This document shows, in pieces, positions 8,512 to 11,593 of a stretch of 56,449 nt of DNA. Position numbers and translations under genes: made by a program. The notes under the pieces are model-generated. The model searched no databases and was not told the DNA's origin. It worked only from the letters and a program-made list of their open reading frames with translations. This DNA is from Rubripirellula sp. (GTDB lineage Bacteria; Planctomycetota; Planctomycetia; Pirellulales; Pirellulaceae). The stretch's first letter is position 1; the number at the start of each line of letters is the position of its first letter. Location: NCBI GenBank assembly GCA_029245125.1, contig JAQWPZ010000055.1, positions 1 through 56,449 of the forward strand. The letters are read 5' to 3'.

Positions 8512-9033
8512 TCAGCGGGGACGGGTGGACAACGTGCAAGCAGACCAACAACCGCGGCTCCCGTCCTTCGTTGCATCAACTGGTTCTCGCTTCCCGTCTT
8601 CATCGTACTTGTACTCAGCATCGCGGTACTCGTACTCGACTCCAGCATTGTACTCACCGGGCGGTTCCGCCACGGTATCCGATCGGACAATCAATCGAGT
8701 CAACATCGGGACGATCCGATGGAGCAAGCGATTCAAGTCCGCGTGGGATTTATCGTCAAGTCAGTTCGTCGCAACATAGATGTCTTGAATCGCAACACAT
8801 TCCAGCGTCGAGCCACGAGCGTTTTCTAGAAATCGACTTCGATCTTTCAGGCTTCGTTTTCCGTTGCCTTCGGCGATATTCAGCGGAATCGATTGGGCGG
8901 CGCGAAGCCGTTGGTCGCACGCATGGCGGTGGCAACCGTTCAGCTCCTTGGCAAGCTTGAACGACAAAGCGACGGATTCGATTGCCAGTCGATAAACGTC
9001 GAGTCGATCGCGATCGAAAACTGGTTCGGTCAT
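8512..9033 (-). pseudogene. four-helix-bundle (23S rRNA intervening-sequence type) protein gene with in-frame TGA
   Basis: Starting at the ATG at 9033 the frame reads MTEPVFDRDRLDVYRLAIE, then RLRAAQSIPLNIAEGNGK, SRFLENARGSTLECVAIQDI and VATN, typical of the IVS-type four-helix-bundle family. A TGA at 8761-8763 then interrupts it, but the same frame resumes without a shift as LDDKSHADLNRLLHRIVPML, which is the expected fourth helix, and runs to a stop at 8512. As the family usually has Gly before Leu-Asp here, the simplest reading is a GGA-to-TGA nonsense change. The tail has lost its usual Glu-Tyr repeat in part (VEYEYRDAEYKYDEDGK). A truncated three-helix product could still be made. No 23S rRNA gene is near, so this is an orphan copy. 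Confidence 0.75.
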
Positions 9034-9430
9034 GGGTGCCCCGTTTCGAGTACGAGCACGAGTACCGGGCCGCGCCCTGAGTACGAGTACGAGTACGAGC
9101 ACGAGTACGAGGACGAGGACGAGGACGATGGCACTTCATGCCAGGACCATTTGATCAATATAAAATCGTCACCCACCCATCTTCTTAGCAAGCATCATCC
9201 TCAGACGACGCAATCCTGAAGGTTTCCGAGACGAGGACCGCAAACGATCGCTCCAAAGCGAGAAAACAACCTGGCACCAAGGGCAACCTCTCGCATCAGC
9301 CAGACATCGACCGCCACATCAAATCGAACCAGTCTGCCAGACACCGCTGATCAATGCTGGGCATCGCGAAACAACGATCGCGAATTTCTTAGAAGGCAGC
9401 TCGATAAAGATTCCCACGGCGTGCCCCACG
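9034..9430. other. gene-free stretch upstream of the four-helix-bundle gene
   Basis: The first 95 bases are dominated by GAGTAC-type hexamers, listed separately. From about 9130 to 9430 there is no credible gene, hairpin or repeat. The frames that cross it are translations of the hexamer repeat. Confidence 0.5.
9048..9128. repeat. degenerate hexanucleotide repeat GAG(T/C/G)AC
   Basis: Three hexamers (GAGTAC, GAGCAC, GAGTAC) at 9048-9065, a 13-bp interruption, then about eight more at 9079-9127 that drift from GAGTAC to GAGGAC. In frame they encode Glu-Tyr, and on the other strand Arg-Thr or Leu-Val. A decayed version of the same hexamer appears on the other side of the four-helix-bundle gene around 8605-8655, so the gene is bracketed by the same simple repeat. 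Confidence 0.85.
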
Positions 9431-9508: not shown

Positions 9509-11593
9509 CTATTTGCAGCAGTCAGCGGCTGGACCGTAGACGGGCACTTTGACAGTCGTTGCGACTGGCTTGCAGACGCGAACTTCTACCGTTTCCATTG
9601 TCTGGACAGGAACACACACGGTGTACTCCTCAGGTACCTCTTCCTTGACTGTCTCGTAAGTGGTGACGTCATAGGTTCGGGTTCGCTCTTCTGGCTCGCA
9701 GGTAGTGGTCTCAACTTCGCGGGAGCGTTCTTGAGTTTCCATTCGCTGCTTTTTCACGGTTCGCGTGCGAGTTTCCGTCTTGCAGCTAGTCTGCGAAACC
9801 ATTCGCTTGCGTGTTTCCATTCGTGTCTTGCAGACAGGAACCATGCGGGTGCGAGTCTCACTCACCATTTTGGTGACAGGGACAGTCCGAGTTCGCTCTT
9901 CGGTGCGGTACTTGGTGATGTCACGAGTTCGCTCTTCTTCGCGATGCTTGCAAAGGGAAACCATTCGAGTCTTCGTCTCGGTGGCCCATTCGCAATAAGC
10001 CACTTCGCGGCTTCGCGTTTCCATACGATTCTTTCGTACAGCAACAGTACAAGTCCGTGTTTCGGTTTCCCAAACGCGAACTGGTACTTCGCAGGTGCGA
10101 TTTTCCCAGCGAGTTTTGCGAACAGCAACTTCGCGGGTACGAGCTTCCGGACGATACTTCGTCACGGTGCACTCGCGAGTACGATCTTCCGTGCGGCACT
10201 TCTGCACTTTGACAACGCGAGTTCGCTCTTCTGGTCGGCATTTGGTGACCGTGATCGTGCGAGTGCGTTCTTCAGGGCGGCACTTTTGAACCTGAACCGT
10301 TCGGGTACGAGCCTCTTTAACCCAATTGGTAACGGTGTAGGTGTAAGGAACTTCGGAGGTCTGACGCTCGTAAGTCGTGCAAGGAACCTCTTCGGAAACC
10401 ATGTTAGGAACATAAACGCGTCGATAGACGGTTCGGGTTCCACCACCACAACCAGTTCCGCATCCACCACCGCAAGCAGAAGTCGGGCAGCAGCAGCAGC
10501 AAGCGGCACTGCCACATGCGTTGCCACAAGCAACTTCGACAGCTTGGCATTCGTATTTACCCATGTCGCGGGTCACGGTCTTCATGGTGGTGACAGGCAC
10601 ACATTTTGAAACGGTGCGGGTCCCTTCTTTGGTCTCGGTCACAGGAACACACTCGGTATAAGTCTGCTCCACGTCTTCGGTGTAAGCGACCTGGACCGTG
10701 TAGGTTTGCTCAACTTCCTCGGTGTAAGGAACTTGAACAGTGTAAGTCTGCTCCGACTCTTCCACGTAGGGGACGTTGACCTTGTAGGTCTGAGTCATGG
10801 TTTCCTGGTAAGGAACCATCGTGGTGTAGTCTTGGGTTACCGTTTCGGTGTAAGGAACACAAACTCGGTACTCACGAGTCTCGGTAACTGTTTTCGGTAC
10901 TCGAACCTGATAAGTTTTTTCGATGTTCTCGGTGTACGGAACACAAACTTGGTAATCGACCATTTTGGTCTTTCGAACCGGAACACGAACGTCATACGAC
11001 TGCTCGACTTGCTCGGTGTAAGGAACCATCACCTTGTACGTTTGCTGCTCGGTGTAAGGAACGCAAACCGTGTAAGTCTGTGTAACGTCCTCTTTCACTG
11101 GAACACACACCGTGTAGGTCTGCTCAACCTGCTCGGTGTATGGCACGCTAACTTGGTATTCCTGCTCGACTTCAGTCGTGACAGGAACCTGTACGGTGTA
11201 CTCTTCCTCTTCTTCATAAGGAACACATACCTGGACTTTATAAGTCTCGGTGTGGGTCTCCGTTTTGGGAACCATCACGGTGTACGTTTGTTCCTTGGTT
11301 TCGACCTTCGCGACTTGTCGACAGACCGTTCGCATGCGAGTGCGAGTCTCTCGTTGGTAGGTCGTGCGTGGGACCTCACGGGTCTCGGTCACGTATTGTG
11401 ACCGCATAACGGTTTGCTCTTCGTATCCGACGATCTCGCCGTTGGAAGAACCTGCAGCACCGACGCTGCTTGCAGTTACGCAAGGCGAGCTGGTGGCACA
11501 GCCGCTACATTTGCCACAGCCGGCTTGGGCATCAACTGACAGCAACAATGCCGCGCTAAGTCCCAAAAATGCCTGTAAAAGATGTGCTCTCAT
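9509..11593 (-). CDS. secreted YTV-repeat cell-surface protein
   Basis: A 694-residue protein, started at the ATG at 11593 because GGAG lies eight bases upstream and a signal peptide follows directly (MRAHLLQAFLGLSAALLLSV, cleavage near AQA). A Cys/Ser-rich head comes next. About sixteen tandem 14-residue units of the type YTVQVPYTEEVEQT fill roughly residues 95-330. A Cys/Gly-rich knot (SAACCCCCPTSACGGGCGTG) follows, then about fifteen 14-residue units of the type RTRTVQVQKCRPEE fill roughly residues 420-640, ending with CVPVQTMETVEVRVCKPV. The first array is acidic and the second basic. YTV-motif proteins are a planctomycete-specific family, reported in R. baltica cell-wall fractions. Alternating hydrophobic residues suggest beta strands, and regular Cys suggests disulfide cross-linking. 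It is a single-gene unit with its own terminator. Confidence 0.9.
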   Translation of the reverse strand: MRAHLLQAFLGLSAALLLSVDAQAGCGKCSGCATSSPCVTASSVGAAGSSNGEIVGYEEQTVMRSQYVTETREVPRTTYQRETRTRMRTVCRQVAKVETKEQTYTVMVPKTETHTETYKVQVCVPYEEEEEYTVQVPVTTEVEQEYQVSVPYTEQVEQTYTVCVPVKEDVTQTYTVCVPYTEQQTYKVMVPYTEQVEQSYDVRVPVRKTKMVDYQVCVPYTENIEKTYQVRVPKTVTETREYRVCVPYTETVTQDYTTMVPYQETMTQTYKVNVPYVEESEQTYTVQVPYTEEVEQTYTVQVAYTEDVEQTYTECVPVTETKEGTRTVSKCVPVTTMKTVTRDMGKYECQAVEVACGNACGSAACCCCCPTSACGGGCGTGCGGGTRTVYRRVYVPNMVSEEVPCTTYERQTSEVPYTYTVTNWVKEARTRTVQVQKCRPEERTRTITVTKCRPEERTRVVKVQKCRTEDRTRECTVTKYRPEARTREVAVRKTRWENRTCEVPVRVWETETRTCTVAVRKNRMETRSREVAYCEWATETKTRMVSLCKHREEERTRDITKYRTEERTRTVPVTKMVSETRTRMVPVCKTRMETRKRMVSQTSCKTETRTRTVKKQRMETQERSREVETTTCEPEERTRTYDVTTYETVKEEVPEEYTVCVPVQTMETVEVRVCKPVATTVKVPVYGPAADCCK

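Follow-up and report, generated by a model that had tools for sequence, protein, structure and literature searches.

A planctomycete YTV protein whose two repeat arms probably pair as a giant antiparallel beta-hairpin

Background

Ordinary beta-hairpins and beta-ribbons combine an antiparallel register with couplings at even offsets between side chains of the same face and with opposite diagonals on the two faces. In the YadA-type adhesins of bacterial surfaces, a 14-residue beta repeat is stacked coil on coil into a left-handed parallel beta-roll. To our knowledge, no ribbon built from strands of ~300 residues serves as a building block of a cell wall.

Since the 1980s, planctomycete walls have been described as made mainly of protein (work cited in PMC8567305), and peptidoglycan has since been reported in planctomycetes too (cited in PMC10632474). 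Several observations connect these walls with the YTV proteins. In the account of the Tuwongella immobilis wall preparation, two YTV proteins are top-scoring, only in the SDS-soluble fraction S3, and cross-linking there, if any, is therefore incomplete; the fibrous remnants are interpreted as the SDS-insoluble wall (PMC8567305). For walls of Gemmata obscuriglobus boiled in 10 % SDS, YTV proteins are named as major constituents (PMC5287468), and one YTV protein is listed as essential in Planctopirus limnophila (PMC10632474). The parts of the YTV literature that we consulted speak of Cys-rich proteins with YTV motifs or domains, give no structure and describe no arm pairing, hinge, code or mirrored indels. 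Among the papers listed by our literature searches, likewise, none was seen to describe paired YTV arms; Mahajan et al. 2020, a main study of these proteins, could contain such a description.

Here we present an analysis of one YTV protein and its relatives. The protein is encoded in a stretch of 56,449 nucleotides, hereafter the window (contig JAQWPZ010000055.1 of the Rubripirellula sp. assembly GCA_029245125.1). Its two repeat arms very probably pair antiparallel as a two-stranded beta-ribbon folded at a central hinge, that is, as a giant beta-hairpin. With ordinary beta-hairpins the protein shares the antiparallel register, the even-offset couplings and the opposite diagonals, but its strands would be ~300 residues each, with indels and lengths compensated between them. 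With the YadA-type beta-roll it has the 14-residue repeat in common, whereas its strong couplings connect the two arms and not successive units.

Results

Organization of the gene and its protein

The YTV gene occupies 9509..11593 on the minus strand, where the open reading frame from the ATG encodes 694 residues plus the stop; the mechanical open reading frame opens at GTG 11620, not at ATG 11593. The 694-residue protein matches the Pfam YTV family (PF07639) in 12 stretches and with a score of 133.9 bits, where the cut-off is 21, and belongs to that family. Searches with the window protein returned no family from NCBIfam and no match among PDB sequences at E-values up to 1.

The features that follow all lie on the minus strand. 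Residues 1-24 (11522..11593), read by eye from the translation, form a probable signal peptide with a hydrophobic core, ending in VDAQA before GCGKC, and a linker of Cys, Ser, Gly and Ala follows at residues 25-56 (11426..11521). The N arm, residues 57-352 (10538..11425), is built from 14-residue units of the type YTVxVPYTEExEQT and is net acidic with an Arg-rich start. A Cys/Gly-rich hinge, residues 353-385 (10439..10537), contains the centre of the charge mirror described below and leads into the C arm, residues 386-686 (9536..10438), with 14-residue units of the type RTVxVxKCRPEERT, net basic with an acidic end. The ends of the arms and of the hinge were set by eye. Phase-break analysis placed one 12-residue unit, carrying a two-residue deletion, in each arm: residues 174-185 (11039..11074) in the N arm and residues 555-566 (9896..9931) in the C arm. 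The whole protein has 39 cysteines.

Elsewhere in the window, 8764-9102 on the minus strand encodes a 23S rRNA intervening-sequence-type protein (PF05635) that begins in simple-sequence DNA. On the plus strand overlapping it, to about 9120, the simple-sequence DNA reads as Glu/Tyr/Asp-rich.

Two arms of equal period and opposite charge

A sequence-only reading of this gene had described two oppositely charged repeat arrays of equal period around a cysteine knot. Two oppositely charged arms around a Cys/Gly-rich centre are confirmed, with net charges of -18 (N) and +21 (C) and of +4 for the whole protein in the GTG-started frame. The 14-residue period is likewise present in both halves, identity autocorrelation at lag 14 being 0.429 (N) and 0.376 (C) over a composition background of 0.122 and 0.115. 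Even lags (e.g. 2, 12, 14, 16) are raised in both arms, and at lag 7 the values fall below background (0.035 in the N arm, 0.053 in the C arm), so the heptad of a coiled coil is absent. The same reading had noted 15-16 clear units per arm; these exist within a larger span of ~300 residues, roughly 21 unit lengths. Towards the ends polarity is reversed, the N arm starting Arg-rich and the last 70-residue window at the C terminus having a net charge of -7.

The central knot fared less well. A cystine-knot fold is a compact domain with six cysteines at conserved spacing. The centre of the YTV protein is a low-complexity hinge, and across 56 proteins (without L059, in our numbering of loci) its C/G-rich length varies from 28 to 162 residues, which leaves a cysteine knot unsupported.

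A charge mirror centred on the hinge

When charge is smoothed along the window protein, the N arm and the mirrored C arm, compared across about 290 residue pairs, correlate at r = -0.81 with residues 371-372 as the centre, smoothing leaving few independent points per protein. None of 1000 shuffles of the unit order of the C arm reached this value (mean -0.26, lowest -0.64), and reversing the C arm, as in parallel docking, gave r = -0.44. When the C arm was rotated one or two units, r stayed at -0.74 to -0.80, because the mirror centre is free to move as much, and the other 16 rotations gave +0.04 to -0.38; from smoothed charge alone the register can therefore be read only approximately. The residue-level charge count of the window protein is noisy, with its top at a sum of 710 (0-based), then 743 and 741, and the register was fixed not by this count but by pooling relatives.

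A search of 149 genomes of the same taxonomic family (Pirellulaceae) gave matches in 128. The set analyzed comprises 57 full or nearly full proteins, several of them close to each other, the window protein included. Left out from 62 rows were the paralogues L009 and L011, the cut or partial L043, L049 and L053, and L026, a near-copy on a Rubripirellula metagenome contig that is 95 % identical to the window protein. Scanned with no use of the hinge position, 56 of the 57 proteins have their best mirror centre no further than 10 residues from the stretch with most C/G (mean r -0.71 over the set), L035 being the protein whose centre falls away from the hinge; mirror centres were scanned over the middle 35-65 % and C/G content over the middle 30-68 % of each protein, and chance agreement in a single protein is not negligible. 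Random re-pairing of arms at equal freedom brought the mean from -0.71 to -0.41 (lowest of 2000: -0.48), and under the same freedom the own arm ranked first among the 57 in only 30 proteins. One protein, L065, has almost no charge mirror (r = -0.24).

Contrary to what had been supposed, the halves are not matched in total charge: arm net charges do not covary (r = -0.08, 57 proteins), and the basic arm carries the larger charge (C > |N|) in 56 of 57 proteins. The acidic-then-basic order expected of homologues is seen within the family, where the N arm is negative and the C arm positive in 51 of 57 proteins, but in only 10 of 26 proteins outside it. These 26 had the highest scores among loci outside the family; they come from three further families, of which two share its order and one does not, and several are closely related. 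With the same scan ranges, the best mirror is centred no more than 12 residues from the window richest in C/G in 23 of 26; in 21 of those 23, r is between -0.71 and -0.93, with next-best centres reaching -0.67, and some proteins have a weak C/G window, with 5-7 such residues in 20. Since 10 of 26 are acidic and then basic but 23 of 26 are mirrored, the conserved property is local complementarity and not a pair of net-charged halves. YTV matches occur in 293 of 297 genomes of the class and in none of 14 control genomes. Among the relatives of the three other families (L188-L213), the mirror at the C/G stretch is mostly kept despite arms that are both basic or of reversed polarity.

Couplings between the arms follow an antiparallel register of constant parity

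With the phase-mean charge removed, the best register has an even phase sum in all 57 proteins (2 in 43, 4 in 10, 0 in 2 and 12 in 2). Pooled over 56 proteins (without L065) at phase sum 2, the charge covariance (x1000) is -40 at offset 0, -32 at +2, -21 at -2 and -20 at -4. At the odd offsets -1 and +1 it is near zero (-1 and -2.5), with a raised value of -16 at -3, and registers shifted by whole units mostly give +6 to -12. This even-offset preference is the signature of two strands whose side chains lie on the same face.

Residue couplings give the same picture at finer grain. We pooled unit pairs at the common register (677 rows, effective number 299) from 54 proteins, L065, L059 and L090 being left out. 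Of the 25 strongest non-local couplings, 22 connect the two arms, all at even offsets from -4 to +2. Replacing the C arm by a foreign one (20 trials) left none between arms in the top 25, with a maximum of 0.72 versus 5.48 for the own arm. Shifts of three to six units left 0-4; shifts of -1, +1, -2 and +2 units left 16, 14, 6 and 12. Those of -1, +1 and +2 retain 6-9 couplings at the offsets of the own register, which is partly unexplained and, we think, partly due to pairs that cross unit borders. The strongest mean coupling lies at offset -2, corresponding to phase sum 0 modulo 14 and a residue sum of about 741; from there, odd phases also couple at +2 and even phases at -2. In a twisted pair of antiparallel strands, the two faces are expected to have such opposite diagonals. 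Cross-strand couplings with constant i+j and the same parity, as in an antiparallel two-stranded beta-ribbon, are thus what the pooled data contain, and by these statistics antiparallel register and parity can be regarded as shown.

The two faces differ in composition, the even face being made of Thr, Cys and Pro and the odd face of Tyr, Val, Arg and Glu. In each of the arms, only even phases have Pro as a common residue (79 % at N6, 39 % at C4, 21 % at C10), as would be expected if the even phases were non-hydrogen-bonded pairs with outward-facing amides.

That each arm instead forms its own beta-solenoid or stacked repeat, with coils of about 14 residues and the pair of solenoids docked side by side, is very improbable. 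Such an arrangement would suit the beta-like alternation of the 14-residue repeats seen at even lags, and docking unit to unit would likewise mirror charge and length, but it calls for strong couplings between successive units of one arm. In a coupling analysis extended to two units, 37 of the top 40 couplings lie between arms at the same even offsets (-4 to +2), and two more have odd offsets. The remaining one of the 40 is the strongest listed coupling from unit to unit inside a single arm, with a z of 2.4 versus 8.2 between arms, so contacts of the solenoid type are not what these data indicate. Between-arm couplings also cover most phases at one register, which continuous strand pairing fits better.

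A position-specific pairing code

At the pooled register, particular residue pairs are enriched or depleted (counts are pooled unit pairs from the 54 proteins and not independent events). At N9-C7, Glu-Lys occurs 281 times (169 expected) and the swapped Lys-Glu 30 times (3.0 expected). At N1-C13, Tyr-Arg is found 598 times (468 expected) and its swap Arg-Tyr 21 times (2.2 expected), and at N7-C9 Tyr-Arg is found 364 times (178 expected) and Tyr-Thr once (52 expected). Thr-Glu is in excess at N12-C2 (183, 83 expected), where Glu-Glu is scarce (7, 75 expected); N10-C2 favors Gln-Met (110, 36 expected) and Met-Gln (36, 7.1 expected), and N4-C10 favors Gln-Thr (179, 74 expected). Part of the code, namely Tyr-Arg, Thr-Glu, Gln-Met and Gln-Thr, is not charge against charge.

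The code recognizes arms that it has not been trained on. Trained without the window protein, it scored the own register of that protein at +0.26 mean log-odds per pair, and each of the eight shifts, by one to four units, scored negative. Across 55 proteins (without L065 and L090), leaving out one at a time, the own arm beat all 15 drawn foreign arms in 50, foreign arms without scorable pairs being counted as beaten.

These results bear on the possibility of an artefact, in which composition, repeat ancestry or an inverted DNA repeat would produce the mirror with no pairing at all; we find this hardly credible. It could draw on the arms being related repeats, on the relatedness of the sequences and on the few independent points of smoothed charge, but foreign arms, shifts of at least three units and re-pairing of arms remove or weaken the signal, the swapped Lys-Glu and Arg-Tyr pairs are in marked excess, and the held-out window protein contradicts it. 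An inverted DNA repeat, searched for in the YTV gene, was not found.

Indels and lengths are compensated between the arms

The two 12-residue units of the window protein each lie 188 residues from the mirror centre. Further phase breaks fall within ~50 residues of the centre. Across proteins, with the mirror centre fitted on charge, 43 of 113 phase breaks of the N arm are mirrored, meaning that an equal break of the C arm lies within 10 residues of the distance in the N arm. Matched with foreign arms in the same way, the figure is 478 of 6328, and none of 2000 permutations reached the value for own arms.

Arm lengths, for which the C/G stretch and not the charge served as the starting point, agree as well (r = 0.83, n = 56, again without L059; 0.82 for independent phylogenetic contrasts). 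The length of the hinge is uncorrelated with that of the N arm (0.05). At the level of sequence statistics, the mirroring of indels and of lengths can likewise be regarded as shown.

Cysteines at the main phases avoid each other in register

Cysteine recurs at preferred phases, as had been noticed from the sequence: over 57 pooled proteins it fills 22 % of positions at N phase 4 and 25 % at C phase 8. In the pooled register these two phases are diagonal contacts. Cysteine at both occurs in 18 in-register unit pairs versus 57 expected (p 8e-13, with unit pairs treated as independent; 56 proteins, without L059), and none of the four shifts by whole units that were tried has this depletion. The depletion contradicts disulfides between N4 and C8 within one ribbon. 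For other combinations, N4 with C2 has a modest excess in register (20 versus 9.9) that also appears at some unit shifts, and N4 with C6 has an excess at shifts of +1 and -2 units.

The avoidance, itself plain in the counts, indicates that the main-phase cysteines are kept from disulfides across the ribbon. The disulfide locking proposed from the sequence alone is modified accordingly: because N4 and C8 cysteines avoid each other within a ribbon, it would probably act between ribbons.

Paralogues, and pairing within or between molecules

The genome of the window protein encodes two paralogues. L011 (contig C4, ORF 1069-2574) is Cys-poor; its arms, around a PG turn, each repeat every 16 residues, and its tail is acidic. 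A turn motif of the PG or RGG type could serve as the centre for 30 of the 32 members examined of its subfamily (B), with a mean r of -0.68 when the mirror centre was searched near the motif. The couplings of these members (202 rows, effective number 92) follow the geometry seen above, with N9-C7 the strongest (z 7.2); between-arm couplings make up 22 of the top 30, and 19 of those 22 have even offsets. L009 (contig C224, ORF 961-2697) is Cys-rich and strongly basic, with 16-residue units, both arms basic and a central module of PG-W-D-C-PG pattern; its subfamily (C) gave no clear mirror signal (mean r -0.30, 10 of the top 30 couplings between arms).

Antiparallel docking of the halves had been proposed between molecules. 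Its antiparallel sense stands: the arms pair at a fixed register, and charge is part of the code. Pairing between molecules is unnecessary, because a hairpin within one chain explains the data. The same pairing between two molecules, as a homodimer or a head-to-tail polymer, is unlikely. An antiparallel homodimer has an identical register of constant i+j, and the coupling and charge results fit it equally; on grounds of parsimony, with the mirror centre on a Gly-rich hinge, the local concentration of an arm on the same chain would be far higher. In comparisons within a genome, the own C arm scored above that of the paralogue in 18 of 20 cases, with one tie (to three decimals) and one unscorable, which argues against mixing of paralogues and bears only on that, not on homodimers.

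Structure models

AlphaFold2, run with a two-row alignment (the window protein and one relative), gave the full protein a pLDDT of 29.9 and a pTM of 0.17; for residues 298-445 (10259-10702) the values were 48.5 and 0.26. The low-confidence model of this fragment has strands at 299-320 and 326-355 separated by a KEG turn, and suggests a different local fold near the hinge, with a local hairpin around residues 320-326. On such a model, a small cap may take the place of plain ribbon over the ~50 residues to either side of the centre.

Discussion

We propose that the window protein is a wall protein of planctomycetes, probably exported, whose N and C arms would pair antiparallel over most of their length in the same chain and in a beta conformation. 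Each 14-residue unit of the N arm would stand opposite one specific unit of the C arm, and the register would be set by a code of Tyr-Arg, Glu-Lys, Thr-Glu or Glu-Thr, Gln-Met and Gln-Thr pairs with swaps such as Lys-Glu and Arg-Tyr. Pro would cap the edges of the ribbon. The main cysteines, out of contact within the ribbon, would probably be available for disulfides between ribbons, yielding a tough protein wall. If straight, the ribbon would have a contour of roughly 100 nm (300 residues x 0.33 nm).

More broadly, we lean towards regarding YTV proteins as a protein analogue of the nucleic-acid stem-loop, with strands of ~300 residues, a position-specific code, compensated indels and a rigid ribbon of up to ~100 nm. 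Such ribbons would join only via chosen faces and disulfides, and would be the basic fibre of the planctomycete protein wall across the class.

A giant hairpin with a readable code offers a concrete and testable architecture for the YTV proteins, which are strong candidates for wall components. It explains the equal period and length of the two halves and predicts which cysteines would cross-link the wall. If true, it would show that beta-pairing both programmable and very long occurs in nature, a point of interest for protein materials, and it would explain how planctomycetes could make a wall fibre from protein.
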